Assembly: GCA_947258985.1 (NCBI GenBank)
Contig: CAMYKI010000046.1
Span: 1-32,332, forward strand
Reading direction: 5' to 3'
DNA length: 32,332 bases
Source: an uncultured Acidimicrobiaceae bacterium
GTDB lineage: Bacteria > Actinomycetota > Acidimicrobiia > Spongiisociales > UBA5794
Position 1 is the first letter of the stretch; every line of letters starts with the position of its first letter. The notes below the pieces were generated by a model. That model saw only the letters and a program-made list of their open reading frames with translations. It had not been told where the DNA came from and did not search any database. Shown piece after piece: positions 5,344-32,214 of the stretch. A program made the translations under genes and the position numbers.

Positions 5344-7140
5344 TTACAGCCCGGCCTCCTGGCTTCTTATCCCCATGTTGAATACGGCCGACGGGGAGGC
5401 TGCGGCAAGTCTTGCTTTCTCTTCGAACGACGTGGCGTCGTAGACGACCACCGCGCTACCCGTCTGCGAGACGACGTACACGCTGCTCCCGTCGTAAGTG
5501 AACTCCGGATGCCAAGAGGATTCCCCGGGCACCGGATGCAGCGTGCGGATGATCTCGAGGCTGGCGACGTCGATTACGTAGATCTCATCGTGACGGTCGC
5601 CGAACGCAGTTTCTGCCCAAACGTATGGGTATTCGTCTGCGGTTTCGGCTACCGGGTTGTGGCGAATGAAGAGGCCGGGTCCGCCAACGTCGATGTCCTT
5701 CACGTTGGTCCACGTGGTCGTGTCGATGACCGACACCGTTCCCTCCGGGTCCAGAGTCGGAATGAAGGTCAGGTTGCCAACCGTTGCTCCCGGCCCGGTG
5801 TGCGGCGTTTCGCCGGTTGGGACCTCGGCGATTTCCTCGCCCGTTTCGGTGTCAAGCACCCAAACAACGTTGGCGCCCTGCACCGCCGCGATCAGATAGT
5901 CGCCCTCGGGGGTCAGGTATGCATCGTGGAGAGGGGTCTGGCCGTCACCGAGGTCCTCGTATTTTCGCACCGGGAAGGTTGGGTCAGCGGTCTCGATCTC
6001 CCAGACGGCGTTGACGTCCTTGAGCACCATGTAGAGCTTGGTGCCGTGCTCGACGATTCCGCCGACCTTGCTCGCGGTTTCTGGCCCGCCGTTGATCGAT
6101 CCAGTCGCTTCGAAAATCTTAAGGACTTCGAGTGACTCGGCGTCGAGAAGCGTCGCCGTGTTTGGCTCGAAATTGCCGACCAGCAGGTACTTGCCGTCGT
6201 CGGTGAGGCCGGTACCTCGAGAGCTGACACCGACATCGATAGAGGCCTCTACCTCGAGGGTTGCCAGGTCGATGCTCGACAACCAGCCGTCGCGAGCGAT
6301 GACGTAAACCTTGGTGCCATCGGGCGAGGGAGTGGGCGCGTGGAGCTGGTGTCCTAGGTCGTCAATGCGTCCGAGCAGAGTGTGGGTGGTGCCGTCGATG
6401 AAGATGATGCTTCTGCAGTCCTTTTCGACCACCAGCATCAGATCCTTAGGATCCCACGATCCGCTTTCTGCGAAAAGGGTCGTCTGCGGGTCGATTGGCC
6501 CACCGATGTCCTCCGGCGGGCAGCCCTCGGGCACGGTGAAGACTTCCTCAGCAGTGATTTCTGAGCCCGTGTCGCCAGAGGCCGCTACGGCCGCGTCGGT
6601 CCACACCTCACCAATGAGGTTCTGCATCATCTTGTCGCGAATGACCGGACCGTGCTGGCGGTGGTAGACCTCGCTCGAGTCTCCGCCACAGTTGCGGAAT
6701 TGTGACGGATGGAGCTTGGCGGCGGCGGTGACATCGAAGACAAGGTCGTCGACGACTACCCAGCAGCTCGTACCGGTATCGCTGTGTGTCGCGATCTCCG
6801 CCAAGGTGAAGAAACCGTTGGGGATTTCCTCGGCAGGGCCTGCCGGTTCCGCGACGGTCGCAGGGTTGGCTGGGGCGACCGCGGGTTGCGCCGGAGCGGC
6901 TGCAACCGGCCGTTCGGCGACTGCGTTCTCCACGAGCGCGTTGATAGTCTCTACGTCGACATTGGGTCGGTTGGAGACGATCACCAGGGTGGTGGCACTG
7001 AGCAGGAGTGCAAAGGCCATGCCGGCAACTGCAACCGCCGTCCAGACTCCGTGGACGGCGTGGGTATGGTCGGGTCGGGGAGGGTACTGCTGCGCTGGGG
7101 AACTAGTGCGGGGTTGAGATTCGTGGTCGGAGGTGGTCAT
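5344..7140 (-). CDS. Cytochrome b5-like domain fused to a YncE/cytochrome-d1-like beta-propeller
   Basis: A 598-residue membrane-anchored protein. Residues 31-55 form one transmembrane helix, followed by an Ala/Pro-rich linker. Residues about 108-180 resemble a cytochrome b5 heme domain: FTLAEIATHS, CWVVVDDLVFDVT, then LHPSQF with His144 and an HRQHG with His160/163 as possible heme ligands. The rest is a repeated propeller (GTKVYVIARDGWLSSIDLATLEV and similar blades) like YVTN/cytochrome d1 proteins. The usual HPGG is HPSQ, so heme binding needs testing. The start ATG shares a base with the TAA of the Rrf2 gene (TAATG), indicating translational coupling. The frame stays open 46 codons upstream, but that part overlaps the regulator and is rejected. 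A role in nitrogen-oxide or redox chemistry is inferred from the regulator and propeller type only. Confidence 0.78.
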   Translation of the reverse strand: MTTSDHESQPRTSSPAQQYPPRPDHTHAVHGVWTAVAVAGMAFALLLSATTLVIVSNRPNVDVETINALVENAVAERPVAAAPAQPAVAPANPATVAEPAGPAEEIPNGFFTLAEIATHSDTGTSCWVVVDDLVFDVTAAAKLHPSQFRNCGGDSSEVYHRQHGPVIRDKMMQNLIGEVWTDAAVAASGDTGSEITAEEVFTVPEGCPPEDIGGPIDPQTTLFAESGSWDPKDLMLVVEKDCRSIIFIDGTTHTLLGRIDDLGHQLHAPTPSPDGTKVYVIARDGWLSSIDLATLEVEASIDVGVSSRGTGLTDDGKYLLVGNFEPNTATLLDAESLEVLKIFEATGSINGGPETASKVGGIVEHGTKLYMVLKDVNAVWEIETADPTFPVRKYEDLGDGQTPLHDAYLTPEGDYLIAAVQGANVVWVLDTETGEEIAEVPTGETPHTGPGATVGNLTFIPTLDPEGTVSVIDTTTWTNVKDIDVGGPGLFIRHNPVAETADEYPYVWAETAFGDRHDEIYVIDVASLEIIRTLHPVPGESSWHPEFTYDGSSVYVVSQTGSAVVVYDATSFEEKARLAAASPSAVFNMGIRSQEAGL

Positions 7141-7550
7141 TACATCTCTCCTGATCTTCCGGAAGGCAGGACCGGTATCTGTTTGAGTTCGGTCAGCACG
7201 GCCTGCTGAACCTGTTGCCACGAATCGTGCAGGGCACAAGGAACGAGGTCGGAGCAGGGACCGTCTTCGAGTACGCATTTATCGGTCGGCAGGGACCCTT
7301 CCACCGTTTCGATCAGCGTCAACATCGTTATGTGGTGTGCGGGCTCGACCAGGCGGTACCCGCCGGTTGGACCCCGACCGGAACCCACCCAGCCTGCATC
7401 GATCAAAGGTGACATCACCTGGGTGAGGTAGTTGGGGGTGGTGCCGACTGCGTCGGCCAGGGCAGGTCCTTGCATCGTGTCGCCGCGGGTTGCGAGAAGC
7501 CTGACGGCACGCAATGCCAGCTCAGTCTTTCGTTGCAGAGTGAATTTCAT
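7140..7550 (-). CDS. Rrf2-family transcriptional regulator, probably Fe-S binding
   Basis: DNA-binding regulator of 136 residues with the Rrf2 winged helix-turn-helix: KTELALRAVRLLA, then ALADAVGTTPNYLTQVM, then the wing GRGPTGGYRL. Three cysteines at 92, 99 and 105 (CX6CX5C) match the cluster-ligand region of NsrR/IscR-type proteins, with slightly different spacing, so it is probably an iron-sulfur sensor of NO, iron or redox state. It is first in a two-gene operon with the b5/propeller protein. Its ATG lies inside the right arm of an 11-bp inverted repeat (7544-7584), with no clear Shine-Dalgarno, suggesting autoregulation and perhaps a leaderless message. Which signal it senses cannot be decided here. 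Confidence 0.88.
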   Translation of the reverse strand: MKFTLQRKTELALRAVRLLATRGDTMQGPALADAVGTTPNYLTQVMSPLIDAGWVGSGRGPTGGYRLVEPAHHITMLTLIETVEGSLPTDKCVLEDGPCSDLVPCALHDSWQQVQQAVLTELKQIPVLPSGRSGEM

Positions 7551-7584
7551 AGTTTCTTAGTTTACTACTATGGAACTATGAAAT
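7544..7584 (-). promoter_or_regulatory. Candidate Rrf2 autoregulatory operator/promoter
   Basis: ATTTCATAGTT (7544-7554) is matched exactly by AACTATGAAAT (7574-7584), an 11-bp inverted repeat with a 19-bp AT-rich spacer in otherwise GC-rich DNA. The Rrf2 start codon lies within it. On the minus strand a TAAACT sits eight bases before the ATG and could serve as a -10 for a leaderless transcript. Operator function is inferred. Confidence 0.6.
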
Positions 7585-7648
7585 CAATGGTCGGTTGTGA
7601 AGATGTGGCCCACTTCTTGGAACCGACACGTGGCTGGGGACTGGCTCC

Positions 7649-7805
7649 CTCGTGCAGTGAGGGGCGTACCCCTCGTGCAGTGAGGGGCGTACCCCTCGTG
7701 CAGTGAGGGGCGTACCCCTCGTGCAGTGAGGGGCGTACCCCTCGTGCAGTGAGGGGCGTACCCCTCAAACAATTGAGGGGCCTGGTGGGGCCCCTAACTC
7801 TCGTA
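7649..7805. repeat. 23-bp tandem array (5 copies) plus terminal hairpin and tail
   Basis: Five exact 23-bp units begin at 7649, 7672, 7695, 7718 and 7741. Each contains GAGGGGCGTACCCCTC, a 6-bp stem with CGTA loop, and the unit junctions can form the alternative stem CCCCTC/GAGGGG. The array closes with CCCCTCAA (7761-7768) and TTGAGGGG (7773-7780) around an ACAA loop. Next come AGGGGCC (7776-7782) and GGCCCCT (7789-7795), then the tail ACTCTCGTAGC (7797-7807) shared with the element at 11601-11650. Open frames through it are only repeated peptides and are not genes. It lies between the divergent Rrf2 and PCuAC genes. Confidence 0.93.
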
Positions 7806-7888: not shown

Positions 7889-7979
7889 GGCCATCGTGGC
7901 TTGGCGGCGTCAAGTGATTGTCAAGCCGGCTGCAAGCGGGATTTGCAGTTCGCCGATGGCCCTTCGGCGGGAGCCGCCG
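7889..7979 (+). ncRNA. Candidate structured leader RNA (three-way junction)
   Basis: Nested inverted repeats can fold as a three-way junction. P1 pairs GGCCATCG (7889-7896) with CGATGGCC (7954-7961). Inside it, P2 pairs GGCTTG (7898-7903) with CAAGCC (7922-7927), and P3 pairs CTGCAA (7930-7935) with TTGCAG (7943-7948). A further hairpin, CGGCGG/CCGCCG around GAG, follows at 7965-7979. It would be the leader of the PCuAC gene at 8117. It matches no RNA class I recognise. In GC-rich DNA such pairings can arise by chance, so this is tentative. I see no gene in 7806-8116. Confidence 0.3.
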
Positions 7980-8066
7980 ACGTTTGCGCAACGCACCATC
8001 CGATTACTCTTGAGTACGCCGACGACCATATGCGAATGAGAGGATCGTCGGATGATAGGGCAAGGG

Positions 8067-8090
8067 TTCGCCGGTCCCTGGACCGGCGGA
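8067..8090 (+). promoter_or_regulatory. Strong hairpin in the leader of the second PCuAC gene
   Basis: CGCCGGTCC (8069-8077) and GGACCGGCG (8080-8088) form a perfect 9-bp stem with a two-base gap, ending 28 bp before the start codon. No T-run follows, so it is not a typical terminator. It could be an attenuator, an mRNA-stability element or a protein-binding site. Confidence 0.45.
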
Positions 8091-8116
8091 AGCGACGCAA
8101 AAGACTGAGGACGACG

Positions 8117-8542
8117 ATGCGTAGAACGCTGATGGTGATAGCGACCCTGGCCATGGTGGCGGGCGCCTGCGGCGGCGAAGCCGAGCTAGATGTAGCCGAT
8201 GCATGGTCGCGCCCGGCCATTGGGCCGAACGGAGCGGTGTATCTCACCATCGAGGGCGGCGAGGCCGACACCGCCCTCAGCAGGGCGTCGGCCCCCGCGG
8301 CCGTTGCCGCTACGGTCGAGATCCATCAGACCGTCATCCGCGACGATGGCGCCATGGGCATGACGGAGATCCCTCAGGTGGAAATCCCCGCTGGTTCCAC
8401 GGTGATGATGGTTCCCGGAGGTCTGCATGTGATGCTGCTGGATCTGGCGGAACCGCTCGAGCTCGGCGATACGTTCGACATGACACTCACGTTCGACGAC
8501 GGCGCCGAATTGATCACGACGGTCGAGGTGAGGGACGAGTGA
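8117..8542 (+). CDS. PCuAC-family copper chaperone lipoprotein (paralog 2)
   Basis: Extracytoplasmic copper chaperone of the PCu(A)C family, 141 residues. A short signal (RRTLMVIATLAMVAGAC) ends in a lipobox Cys. Copper-site residues are visible as EIHQT, a Met pair in DGAMGM, and GGLHVML (H-x-M). The ATG at 8117 has GAGG at 8106-8109 with good spacing; the frame runs upstream to 7901, but that stretch is Arg-rich, contains the leader hairpins and lacks a signal. It converges with copA, so copper export and extracytoplasmic chaperoning lie side by side. It is similar in plan to the 39-485 protein, though with diverged sequence. Confidence 0.88.
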   Translation: MRRTLMVIATLAMVAGACGGEAELDVADAWSRPAIGPNGAVYLTIEGGEADTALSRASAPAAVAATVEIHQTVIRDDGAMGMTEIPQVEIPAGSTVMMVPGGLHVMLLDLAEPLELGDTFDMTLTFDDGAELITTVEVRDE

Positions 8543-8553
8543 GGCGACGCCTC
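8541..8553. terminator. Weak hairpin between convergent genes
   Basis: GAGGCG and CGCCTC separated by one base lie exactly at the 3' end of the PCuAC gene, in the 72-bp gap before the copA stop. There is no T-tract. It is listed only as a possible transcription end for the + strand. Confidence 0.25.
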
Positions 8554-8614
8554 CTGGTTGCATCGGCGTTCTCGCCCTGATCGCCGGCCCCGTGTGGCGT
8601 TGGCGAAGCCGCAG

Positions 8615-10930
8615 CTACCGGCCGAAGCGCCTCAACCGGAGTGAATTCCCGACCACCGACACACTGGACATGGCCATGGCAGCGGCGGCGATCATTGGGT
8701 GGAGGAGTCCGGCGGCGGCCAGCGGGATCGCTGCTGTGTTGTAGGCGAAGGCCCAAAAGAGGTTCTGGCGGATCACCTGGAAAGTACGAGCCGCCAGTGA
8801 TAGCGCGGTGACCGCCAGTTCCGGGTCGCCGTTCATGAGTACCACGTCTCCGGCCTCGATGGCCACGTCGGTCCCGGTGCCGATCGCCATTCCCAGATCC
8901 GCCTGGACGAGTGCCGGGGCATCGTTGACGCCGTCGCCGACGAACGCCACTTGTTGACCCTCGCCCTGCAGCCGGGCGATCTCGGCGGACTTGTCTCCCG
9001 GGAGGACCTCGGCCATCACCCGGTCGATACCGATTTGATCGGCGATGGTGTCGGCGGTGCGGCGGTTGTCTCCGGTGAGCATCCCGGTTGTGAGCTCATT
9101 GGCCTGGAGTGATGCGATTGCTCGGGCCGACGATTCTCGAACGGTATCGGCCACGGCGAGGGCCGCCCGTACCTCACCGTCCCATCCGGCCAGGAACGCA
9201 GTTTCACCGGCCAGCTCCATCTCCTCGAGAGCGTCTTCGAACCGTTCGGGCACGAGCAGGCCGAGCTCGGCCATCAACTTCGCCGATCCGACGGCAACTT
9301 CGTGCCCGTCGACAGTGCCGCGCACCCCGCGGCCGGGCAGGTTCTCGAAGTTCGACGGGAGGACCAGCTCGGCGCCGCCTTCCTCTGCGCCGAGCGCCAC
9401 GGCGCGAGCGATCGGGTGCTCACTTGCCGATTCAGCCGAGCCGATGAGACGGAGGGCAACGGGCTCGTCGTCGGTGACGATCCGGCTCAAGGTCATCGCG
9501 CCTCTGGTCAGGGTGCCGGTCTTGTCGAACACGACGGTGGTAACCGCCTTCGTCCGTTCGAAGATCTCGGCGTTCTTGAACAGAATTCCGAGTTCCGCAC
9601 CTCGGCCGGAGCCGACCATGATCGCCGTCGGGGTGGCGAGGCCGAGAGCGCACGGGCAGGCGATGATGAGTACGGCGACCGCCGCCTGGACTGCCTGGGC
9701 GACGTCGCCATCGACCAGCAGCCATCCGGTCAGGGTGGCGATGGCGATGAGCAGCACCACCGGCACAAAGATGCCCGAGATGCGGTCGGCGAGCCGCTGG
9801 ATCGGTGCCTTGCTCGTCTGGGCGTCCTCAACGAGTCGGACGATCTGGGCCAGAGCCGTGTCGGACCCGATCCTGGTTGCCTCGACGATGATCATCCCGT
9901 GCTGGTTGATGGTTGCACCGAAGACCTCGTCTCCGGGCGCCTTGTCGACAGGCTTCGACTCGCCGGACAACATGCTCTCGTCGAACGAGGACGACCCCTC
10001 GAGCAGCATCCCGTCGGTCGGTACTTTTTCCCCGGGGCGGATCACCATATGGTCGCCGGGGGTCACCTGATCGATCGGTACAGTGACCTCGACGCCGTCG
10101 CGTGAGACCCGGGCCTCTTTCGCTCCGAGTTCGAGCAATCTGGTGATCGCGCTTGAAGCCCGTCCCTTGCTGCGTGCCTCGAAAAAGCGGCCGAGCAGGA
10201 TGAACGTGATGATCCACGCCGCCGTCTCGAAGAACACCGGCTCGCCTGCAAAGAATGCCCAGATCGAGTAGGTGTAGGCAGCCAGCGTCCCCATCGAGAT
10301 GAGCGTGTCCATGTTCGCTCCGCCGCTGCGTAGCCTGAGGAACGCAGTGCGGTGGAACTGCCATCCGAACACGAAGACGACCGGGGTGACCAGGAGCCAG
10401 ATCACCAGATCCGGCCACGTGGCTCCGCCACCCATGTCCATGGCGCCCATCTCGTCCATGTCCATGCCGGCCATGCCGGTCATGTCCATTTCCTCGACGA
10501 CGACACCGGCGTCGAGCTCAGATTCCATGACGGGTCCCAGGACGATGGCATCGTCGTTGCCCCCATCGTGCCCGCCGGGCCCAAACATCATGAGGAGAAA
10601 GGCCGGAACGGTGAAGATCGCCGCCCCGATCGCCATGCGGCGCTGGTACCGCGTCTCGGAGTCGTACCGATCGGCGAGGCTCTCCCGAGCCTCGTCCTGC
10701 ACCACCTCCGTGGCGCCGTATCCGATCTTCTCGACGGCGGCAGTGAGGCCGGCGATATCGATGCCCGGATGGACAGCGATCTTGGCCTCCTTGCCGGTGA
10801 GGTTTACCACCGCCGATTCCACACCATCCTGCTTGCCGAGCACACGCTCGATGCGCATCGCGCACGACGCACATGTCATGCCCTCAACGTCGAGGGTGAC
10901 GGTCTCGGTGGTGGTGGTCTCGGCGGGCAT
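8615..10930 (-). CDS. copA: Cu(+)-exporting P1B-type ATPase
   Basis: ATP-driven Cu(I) efflux pump, 771 residues. An N-terminal heavy-metal domain carries GMTCASC (17-23). P1B hallmarks follow: the CPC motif in [14 protein letters not shown], the phosphorylation site DKTGTLT, the actuator loop MLSGES, the SEHPIA motif and [10 protein letters not shown]. The Cu(I)-type CPC plus CsoR and CopZ neighbours indicate copper rather than zinc or cadmium. Unusually, the loop between the first two membrane helices holds eight Met in residues 148-166, mixed with Asp and Gly, resembling periplasmic copper-binding segments. The start at 10930 is seven bases after the copZ stop. Further upstream the frame overlaps copZ and is rejected, although no strong Shine-Dalgarno is seen. 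Confidence 0.96.
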
Positions 10931-10937
10931 ATCCGGA

Positions 10938-11147
10938 CTACTGGGAGGGGACGTCGTAGCCCTGGTCTTCGATGGCGCCGATGATGCCTTCGATAGATGC
11001 GGGCGCATCGAATCCGACACTCACGGTCGCATCCTTGACGTTGACCTCGGCTGAGGCGACGCCGTCGAGAGCGTTAACTGCGCCTTCGATCGACATCTTG
11101 CAGTGATCACAGTGGATCTCGGGTACCGACAGGGTGGTTTCAGTCAT
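10938..11147 (-). CDS. copZ: Copper chaperone, HMA domain
   Basis: Small cytosolic Cu(I) carrier of 69 residues, consisting of one heavy-metal-associated domain. The metal site is IHCDHC near residues 12-16, where CopZ proteins usually have MxCxxC, and the C-terminal GYDV fits the fold. It should pass copper to CopA and to CsoR. Its ATG overlaps the csoR TGA by four bases (ATGA), so the two are translationally coupled, and copA follows after seven bases. The gene order csoR-copZ-copA is a well-known copper operon. Confidence 0.93.
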
Positions 11148-11440
11148 GGAGTTGCTTCCTTGATCGGGCCGGTGATGGCCGGCGTGTAGCGGATGGTTTC
11201 GAGGAGTTCGTCGACAATTTCGGTGGTGCGCCCCTCCTCGACGGCATGCATCACGCAGGTCTCGATGTGGTTCTCCAGGAGAACACGATTGACTCCCTCG
11301 AGAGAACCCTGGAGAGCCGACACCTGCTTCATGATGTCGGGGCAGTACCGCTCATCATCGACCATGGCGATCACCGCATCGATGTGACCGCGGACGGTCT
11401 TGAGGCGATTGAGCGCAGCCTTCTTGTGGTCGGGAATCAT
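11144..11440 (-). CDS. csoR: CsoR-family copper-sensing repressor
   Basis: Cu(I)-responsive repressor of the CsoR/RcnR family, 98 residues and all-helical. The Cys-His-Cys ligand set is present: Cys in ERYCPDI, and His and Cys in NHIETCV. Helix one carries KKAALNRLKTVRGHIDAV, the conserved DNA-contact region. Copper binding should release the operator and induce csoR-copZ-copA. I start at the ATG at 11440. The frame remains open to 11596, but the extra 52 residues are translated tandem repeat (RDTPLTRV copies) and not protein. A G/C-tract inverted repeat at 11469-11489 is the likely operator. Confidence 0.93.
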   Translation of the reverse strand: MIPDHKKAALNRLKTVRGHIDAVIAMVDDERYCPDIMKQVSALQGSLEGVNRVLLENHIETCVMHAVEEGRTTEIVDELLETIRYTPAITGPIKEATP

Positions 11441-11468
11441 GGGGTCCTTGCCGTAGCTGACCCCAGTG

Positions 11469-11489
11469 TACCCCTCCCGGGGAGGGGTG
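11469..11489 (-). promoter_or_regulatory. Candidate CsoR operator
   Basis: ACCCCTCC (11470-11477) and GGAGGGGT (11481-11488) form an 8-bp inverted repeat around CGG, about 30 bp upstream of the csoR start. Pseudo-palindromes with C/G tracts flanked by TA are typical of CsoR sites, and the TACCCC...GGGGTG form fits. Binding is inferred, not shown. Confidence 0.55.
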
Positions 11490-11528
11490 GATGTCGTGCC
11501 GCCGCCGCCGGGCGGCCGCACCGTACGG

Positions 11529-11650
11529 GCAAGGGGCGTATCCCTCACGCGAGTGAGGGGCGTATCCCTCACGCGAGTGAGGGGCGTATCCCTCACGCAA
11601 GTGAGGGACCCCCACCGGGCCCCTCACTCTCGTAGCTGGATTGCCTTCCG
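11529..11650. repeat. 24-bp tandem array plus terminal hairpin and tail
   Basis: Units of 24 bp begin at 11553 and 11577, with a partial copy from about 11529 and a diverging last one at 11601. The unit junctions form CCCTCAC and GTGAGGG stems around GCGA, GCGA and finally GCAA. The element ends with GTGAGGG (11601-11607) paired with CCCTCAC (11621-11627) and a tail CTCTCGTAGCTGGATTGCC. Unit and tail are homologous to the array at 7649-7805 and the solo copy at 5183. It lies between the csoR promoter and the nrdJ terminator. Confidence 0.92.
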
Positions 11651-15288: not shown

Positions 15289-15439
15289 CTACGCAAGAGT
15301 CATTCAAGACGCGTATTCGCAACCTGTGCGCTAGGGGAAGAAGGCCTATTTCTACAGGCTCGGGACCGGTTTGGGCAACCTAAACACCTTCAATTGTTTC
15401 GCGAGACAACCGCAGTTTTCGCGCTGGCGCGATGTTCCA

Positions 15440-15711
15440 GGTCCGAGCGTGACAGACAAACGCCGTGGAGGCTTGCGTTGGCGACGGGCGTCGAGCCAGT
15501 GGGCTGGAGCCAGCGTTGTTTGTTGCGCGAGTCCGAGCGAGACAAACAAACGCCGTGGAGGCTCGCGTTGGCGGCGAGCGTCGAATCAATGGGCTGGAGC
15601 CAGCGTTGTTTGTTACGCGAGGTCCGAGCGTGACAAACAAACGCCGTGGAGGCTCGCGTTGGCGGCGAGCGTCGAATCAATGGGCCGGAGCCAGCGTTGT
15701 TTGTTACGCGA
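15440..15711. repeat. Three tandem 90-91 bp cloverleaf-like repeats
   Basis: Copies begin at about 15440, 15530 and 15621. Each is bounded by a long imperfect stem (ACAAACAA arm near the start, TTGTTTGT near the end). It encloses a GCTCGC/GCGAGC hairpin and a GCTGG/CCAGC hairpin. The repeated peptides read through it on both strands are artefacts. The array lies 92 bp upstream of the lipoprotein start at 15804 and about 290 bp upstream of nrdJ on the other strand. I see nothing else in 15300-15439. Confidence 0.9.
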
Positions 15712-15803
15712 GGCCGGCGCCGCGAGGTCGGCGGCGGCTTCAACAGATTCCCGGGGACCGGGCCCAGGCGAGCTAGCGTTGATTGGGAGTCGAAGGGAAG
15801 CCA

Positions 15804-29260: not shown

Positions 29261-29293
29261 TGCCGGGAGACTAGGAGACTGTCGAACATAGGC

Positions 29294-29463
29294 GGTGGAG
29301 GCTCGGCGGGGCGACGGAGTGTCTGTTCGCGGAGTGGTCGTCGAGTCGGTACTCGTGTTGTTCGGTGGGTTCCCGGGAGACTGTTGGGCAGAGGTGGTGG
29401 AGGCTCGGCGGGGCGACGGAGTGTCTGTTCGCGGAGTGGTCGTCGAGTCGGTACTCGTGTTGA
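29294..29463. repeat. 68-bp direct repeat, two identical copies at 102-bp period
   Basis: Copies at 29294-29361 and 29396-29463 are identical over 68 bp, and flanking bases (GGGAGACTGT-like) are also related. Each contains the hairpin CGAGTCGGTACTCG and shares GTGGAGGCTCG with the 90-bp repeats at 15440-15711. It lies in the 253-bp gap upstream of the SGNH gene and downstream of the LLM gene. No gene is seen in this gap. Confidence 0.88.
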
Positions 29464-32095: not shown

Positions 32096-32214
32096 ACGCC
32101 GGCACACGTGCCAGAACGCCGGCACACGTGCCAGTACGCCGGCACACGTGCCAGTACGCCGGCACACGTGCCGGTACGCCGGCACACGTGCCAGTATGCC
32201 GCCAGACTTGCCGG
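32095..32214. repeat. 20-bp tandem array, six copies
   Basis: Six contiguous 20-bp units start at 32095, 32115, 32135, 32155, 32175 and 32195. The first five differ at only one or two bases and the last is degenerate. Each carries GGCACACGTGCC, a short hairpin containing the palindrome CACGTG. The array begins on the last base of the histidine kinase stop codon and ends 41 bp before the next start codon. Confidence 0.94.

Follow-up and report, generated by a model that had tools for sequence, protein, structure and literature searches.

Organization of the two-gene unit

The window, i.e., the whole stretch of 32,332 nucleotides that was analysed (contig C46), belongs to the genome of an uncultured actinobacterium (3.6 Mb, 93% complete and distributed over 150 contigs). 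A unit of two genes on the reverse strand encodes an Rrf2-family regulator and a membrane-anchored protein, in which a cytochrome b5 domain is joined to a cytochrome d1 propeller (b5-d1). The genes and their features are located as follows.

7544..7584, reverse strand: candidate operator, ATTTCATAGTT-19 nt-AACTATGAAAT; the right arm overlaps the Rrf2 start codon
7140..7550, reverse strand: gene for the Rrf2-family regulator, 136 aa (PF02082, E 7e-27)
5344..7140, reverse strand: gene for the anchored cytochrome b5-cytochrome d1 protein, 598 aa (Pfam, structure model)
6916..7140, reverse strand: N-terminal anchor, aa 1-75, transmembrane helix at about 29-57 (homologous to NirK anchors of related genomes)
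6595..6813, reverse strand: cytochrome b5 domain, aa 110-182, predicted ligands His144 (in HPSQ) and His163 (PF00173, profile, Foldseek)
5374..6456, reverse strand: cytochrome d1 propeller, aa 229-589 (PF02239, E 3.4e-65; confident model)
6340..6342, reverse strand: His267, counterpart of the proximal heme d1 ligand His182 of NirS (identical in 34 of 34 d1 sequences)
5926..5928, reverse strand: His405, counterpart of catalytic His327 of NirS (alignment of 34 d1 domains)
5800..5802, reverse strand: His447, counterpart of catalytic His369 of NirS (same alignment)

Base 7140 is common to the stop codon (TAA) of the regulator gene and the ATG of its partner (..GGAGAGATGTAATGACC..). An earlier note on this DNA had described the overlap, as well as the coupling of an Rrf2 regulator to a protein with a transmembrane helix, a b5 domain and a d1-type propeller, and the coordinates and Pfam domains agree with it on both counts. 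An in-frame ATG further upstream would allow an ORF of 644 residues; homologous proteins begin at the position matching the ATG at 7140, which favours the 598-residue product. The pair is real and not a product of chance, since the domains of b5-d1 score above curated cut-offs and the homology of its anchor exceeded all 2000 of 2000 composition-preserving shuffles. The earlier note had further held that nothing of the kind was obviously described, and no account of it was found in the searchable papers; the open-licence literature yielded neither a published b5-d1 fusion tied to nitrite reductase nor a published link between Rrf2 and nitrite reductase in Acidimicrobiia.

Modular structure of the b5-d1 protein

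The propeller was modelled with confidence, and its best PDB folds were NirN, NirF and NirS, followed by a clear drop to YVTN/YncE propellers. The earlier description of a d1/YncE-like propeller thus stands for its d1 part, given the PF02239 match; the YncE part does not, and a YncE/lactonase propeller was rejected (14.4 bits versus a cut-off of 27.1). A reading as L-NosZ was likewise discarded, at 37 bits against a cut-off of 700; a true NirN obtains 51 bits with the same model.

In NirS, His182 holds the heme, and His327 and His369 are catalytic (PMC8756737). Among the 34 aligned d1 domains, the position of His327 is occupied by His405 in the window protein, by Asp in NirN and by Tyr in NirF. 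The NirS-type histidines are all kept, unlike in NirN and NirF, and make the active site reductase-like, although NirN (6rtd) is the top PDB match by both sequence and fold.

The b5 domain is matched by the Pfam Cyt-b5 family over residues 112-164 (E 2e-5, above the gathering score), and a profile built from the window domain and five Patescibacterial sequences matched solved cytochrome b5 (E 1.5e-8). Both axial ligands are kept in the alignment; His160 is likewise invariant and may be an alternative heme ligand. Modelled alone, the domain reached a modest pLDDT of 66 and a Foldseek TM of 0.74 to b5, and among the matches listed all with E ≤0.001 were b5 domains; in the whole-protein model this part is poor, with a pLDDT of about 50. 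The altered HPGG motif noticed earlier is genuine and reads HPSQ, and the b5 fold, whose absence would have spoken against that earlier proposal, was recovered by the profile match as well as by the separate model. The combined evidence of profile and model points to a b5 domain with both of its heme histidines. No CXXCH motif, as in an N-terminal cytochrome c, occurs in the window protein, which carries the b5 domain instead.

The transmembrane helix is seen in a structure model built from 19 homologues. The first 75 residues are 50-54% identical to the anchors of NirK in the related genomes G160 and G105 and to a gene in G278, an identity matched by none of 2000 shuffles; similarity to the NirK anchors of G050 and G232 is weaker, at about 30% identity. 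This type of anchor is therefore borne by NirK in four genomes (G160, G105, G050 and G232). The copy in G278 is a fifth, in a gene cut by the contig end behind a nos cluster, and G152 contains a further weak match. Following a single transmembrane helix, the heme domains most likely reside outside the cell, on the outer side of the membrane.

Phylogeny and distribution of the d1 domain

In the d1 tree, the domain from the window groups with b5-d1 proteins of Patescibacteria (support 99/97), apart from NirS, NirN, NirF and the c-d1 proteins of its own order; its branch is long, and the support overstates how well its position is known. The NirS clade (100/100) excludes it, and it also falls outside the NirN and NirF clades. 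Within the class, b5-d1 is present in only one of 296 genomes, that of the window. Elsewhere in the searched genome contigs, the fusion was found only in Patescibacteria (genomes of 0.7-0.8 Mb), complete at five loci (L078-L082) and cut at another (L086). The five complete proteins begin with about 200 residues that form a multi-helix membrane domain, unnamed by Pfam and containing conserved histidines, which could be the entry point for electrons from quinol. None of the Patescibacterial genes has an Rrf2 neighbour. No plasmid record covered 80% of the b5-d1 protein.

The modules fused to d1 in this branch comprise cytochrome c, cupredoxin together with cytochrome c, a cupredoxin-like domain alone, and b5. 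The cupredoxin-like domain occurs in a Thermofilaceae archaeon (L085, 1442-3211) and shows a CuA-like CxxxCxxxH motif. Separately, the window's order contains a NirS with two cytochrome c domains (c-c-d1; L045, 12164-14116, in G282, and also L046 and L047), an arrangement that has been described as exclusive to Chloroflexi (PMC8756737). The siroheme decarboxylase family PF17805 was not found in these three c-c-d1 genomes.

The Rrf2 regulator and its candidate operator

Candidate Fe-S ligands of the window Rrf2 are Cys92, Cys99, Cys105 and His108, which correspond to the cluster loop found in Rrf2 proteins of the Fe-S type and are kept in all of the Rrf2 homologues linked to nitrite reductases. 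In terms of the NsrR cluster ligands (PMC11500311), the position of Asp8 is occupied by Glu10, and it varies among the homologues. The protein scored 28.9 bits against the 182 required by the NsrR equivalog, a model of the enterobacterial type. It is likely the sensor of the unit, to judge from its residues, and from the context we infer that it would sense NO. In Thermus, an Rrf2/NsrR protein represses nirS by binding to its promoter (PMC5748679).

The arms of the operator-like repeat match exactly (11 of 11), and none of 400 dinucleotide shuffles was as good. Comparable repeats lie at the equivalent position in G050 and G232 (11-12 bp) and in G105 (9 bp), again with 0 of 400 shuffles in each case; the Rrf2 gene of G105 starts with GTG, and its repeat shows the matching change in the left arm (TTCACAGTT/AACTGTGAA). 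G186 has a different inverted repeat nearby, and no comparable repeat was found at the Rrf2 genes of G160 and G278 or at those beside NirS. The 7-bp core pattern occurs a single time in the window genome, at this site, which suggests that the regulator is dedicated and autoregulatory.

Nitrite reductase genes beside the Rrf2 clade

The window Rrf2 is a member of a clade that is separated (99/98) from the other Rrf2 proteins of the same genomes, in a tree whose long branches call for some caution, and is closest to those of G160, G105 and G278 (89/90). Members of the clade are located beside NirK in four genomes, namely G160 (divergent), G186, G050 and G232, the latter two having an overlapping two-gene operon with Rrf2 first. 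Three others (G282, G219 and G183) are beside NirS, and one (G230, locus L097) forms an overlapping operon with c-d1. In G207, Rrf2 (C184, 11571-11951) is located beside nosZ (G207:C184:12165-14000), 0.2 kb upstream of it, with a cytochrome c gene before it (L062). In G105 and G278, the Rrf2 gene is located away from NirK. The NirK proteins of these relatives score 249-296 bits with TIGR02376, mostly just below the equivalog cut-off of 296.3. A fragment similar to Rrf2 (L044, 7409-7555; 53% over 49 aa) lies just upstream of c-d1 in G186, to which locus L100 also belongs, and looks like a truncated Rrf2.

Searches of the window genome (93% complete) detected no NirK, NirS or NosZ, which leaves b5-d1 as its only candidate nitrite reductase. 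Loss of the pairing in relatives was the other condition that would have spoken against the earlier proposal: Rrf2 does not accompany b5-d1 in Patescibacteria, and the pairing with b5-d1 itself is not conserved, but that of the Rrf2 clade with several kinds of nitrite reductase is kept in the order. Since this clade stands beside NirK, NirS, c-d1 or NosZ and the anchor is shared with NirK proteins, b5-d1 occupies the slot of a nitrite reductase. The simplest account is that NirK gave way to b5-d1 while the anchor and regulator already present were kept, with the direction of the change presumed.

Proposed function

An Rrf2-controlled nitrite reductase with cytochrome b5 as its electron relay is, with some reservation, the explanation that we regard as probable; its substrate, the cofactor in the d1 pocket and its topology are inferred. 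The unit would be an autoregulated Rrf2-nir operon, in which Rrf2 acts as an Fe-S repressor of the IscR/NsrR type, bound to the inverted repeat at the start codon of its own gene. With an intact cluster both genes would be repressed, and NO or loss of the cluster would relieve the repression. The anchored enzyme would operate on the external side of the membrane, where the b5 heme would accept electrons and hand them to a tetrapyrrole bound by His267 of the propeller, and His405 and His447 would help to convert nitrite to NO. The b5 domain would thereby take the role that cytochrome c has in NirS. The variable electron-transfer module of the branch is as expected of a redox enzyme and supports a reductase, and the NsrR control of nirS in Thermus provides a precedent for the regulation. 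On the other side are the lack of a standard heme d1 supply in sight, the top match to NirN, the occurrence in one of 296 genomes and the lack of nor or nos genes in the window. The protein should not be filed as NirS: it has no cytochrome c, it lies outside the clade and the d1-biosynthesis genes were not found.

Cofactor supply and alternative explanations

The synthesis of heme d1 requires NirDLGH, NirJ, NirF/NirC and NirN (PMC13168839). The window genome (93% complete) yielded no siroheme decarboxylase (PF17805), no second d1 protein resembling NirF and no NirJ candidate near the cut-off; the best candidates for NirJ were sulfatase-maturase-like or MoaA-like by sequence, and L034 was rejected as NirJ at 490 bits as an anaerobic sulfatase maturase. 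PF17805 was also missing from 10 relatives, including three with a typical NirS, and from 20 of the 22 genomes behind other d1 loci. The two genomes that do have it, Thermaerobacter (L096) and L101 with a true NirF, indicate that the search works. Either another cofactor, another supply, or heme d1 genes that are diverged or unassembled would have to be assumed in these d1-bearing organisms. This gap is the main weakness of the nitrite-reductase explanation.

The strongest alternative, which we consider rather unlikely, is that the propeller holds heme b or another tetrapyrrole and carries out a different reaction, e.g., the oxidation or reduction of NO, as part of Rrf2-controlled protection against NO. 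The missing biosynthesis genes, the validated scarcity of PF17805 among genomes with d1 relatives and the presence of b5-d1 in the small Patescibacterial genomes would all fit. However, relatives with a typical NirS also lack PF17805, such that its absence is not specific to b5-d1, and the three NirS histidines are kept. A broader proposal is tentative and somewhat doubtful, yet conceivable: the b5-d1, cupredoxin-d1 and c-d1 proteins of Patescibacteria, Actinomycetota, Chloroflexi and an archaeon would form a widespread branch of redox enzymes that do not depend on the known heme d1 pathway, having either heme b in the d1 pocket or heme d1 from a different, novel route of synthesis. In that case, b5-d1 would be the heme-b-wired form of the branch, under the control of an Fe-S Rrf2 protein in the window organism.

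A role in heme d1 maturation, of the NirN or NirF kind and with b5 as electron acceptor, would agree with the leading PDB matches by sequence and fold and with the fact that NirF works with the cytochrome NirC (PMC13168839). We nevertheless discarded it as highly improbable, since the genome has no detected NirS to mature and no upstream d1 genes, the residue at position 405 is the His of NirS, and the domain belongs to neither clade. The earlier note had envisaged an NO- or redox-responsive heme system. Its connection to nitrogen oxides holds, but the heme partner more closely resembles a nitrite-reductase-type terminal enzyme than the sensing half. There is very little to be expected of b5-d1 as a heme sensor forming one signalling system with Rrf2: despite the overlapping genes and the heme-binding residues, members of the Rrf2 clade are paired with NirK in relatives, the heme domains would most likely be extracellular and Rrf2 cytoplasmic, and no regulator adjoins the Patescibacterial genes. 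A chimeric or contaminating assembly, which could account for a gene found once in the class with its nearest b5 and d1 relatives in Patescibacteria, is equally hard to credit, because GC and GC3 of both parts match the contig and a single uninterrupted ORF bears an order-typical anchor and overlaps an order-typical regulator.

Comparison with known systems

The window protein resembles NirS in its eight-bladed d1 propeller and the counterparts of His182, His327 and His369, but differs in the b5 domain that stands for cytochrome c, the membrane anchor, the place of its d1 domain in the tree and the heme d1 biosynthesis genes, which were not found in its genome. NirN, a dihydro-heme d1 dehydrogenase, gives the highest PDB scores; in contrast to b5-d1, it bears a cytochrome c domain, has Asp in the place of His327, and occurs together with nirS and nir biosynthesis genes. 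NirF is a single-domain propeller with Tyr, whereas the window protein is a fusion with His405. The chimeric C1-C2-NirS and the cupredoxin-bearing forms of Chloroflexi (PMC8756737) similarly have extra or exchanged electron-transfer modules on d1, but these bear cytochrome c, some with cupredoxin, and b5 is not mentioned. In Thermus, an Rrf2/NsrR protein also controls a d1 nitrite reductase; there, however, the genes are separate transcription units in the nic cluster, NirS is of the cd1 type and nirJ is present (PMC5748679). The anchored NirK proteins of G160, G105, G050 and G232 share with it the N-terminal anchor and the Rrf2 clade, and in G050 and G232 also the overlapping operon, but are copper enzymes.

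Nitrite reductases catalyse the step by which nitrogen is committed to gaseous products. If the proposed function is correct, the built-in relay of such an enzyme can be b5, besides cytochrome c or cupredoxin, which suggests that the electron-feeding part of a cd1-type nitrogen-cycle enzyme is swappable; surveys of nirS and nirK would then tend to miss b5-d1. Some Patescibacteria, in which nirK has been reported (PMC5581439), would gain a second candidate route of nitrite reduction. The near-general absence of PF17805 from the checked genomes with d1 relatives makes the identity of the cofactor in these d1 domains directly testable. The Rrf2 slot, occupied by NirK, NirS, c-d1 or b5-d1, shows plainly how, next to a single type of regulator, an enzyme can in nature be exchanged for a non-homologous one.

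Other features of the window

Copper genes adjoin the operon (7901-11596) and encode PCuAC, a CopA-type ATPase and a CsoR/RicR-like repressor; a second PCuAC is located near the contig start (39-494). A functional tie between these genes and the operon, for which their position speaks but no other evidence, was not adopted. Short tandem arrays are located at 7647-7766, 11532-11607, 15439-15713, 29274-29462 and 32096-32212. Upstream of the operon, a 23-bp unit (CCCTCGTGCAGTGAGGGGCGTAC) is repeated 5.2 times, and the 24-bp unit of the array at 11532 resembles it.
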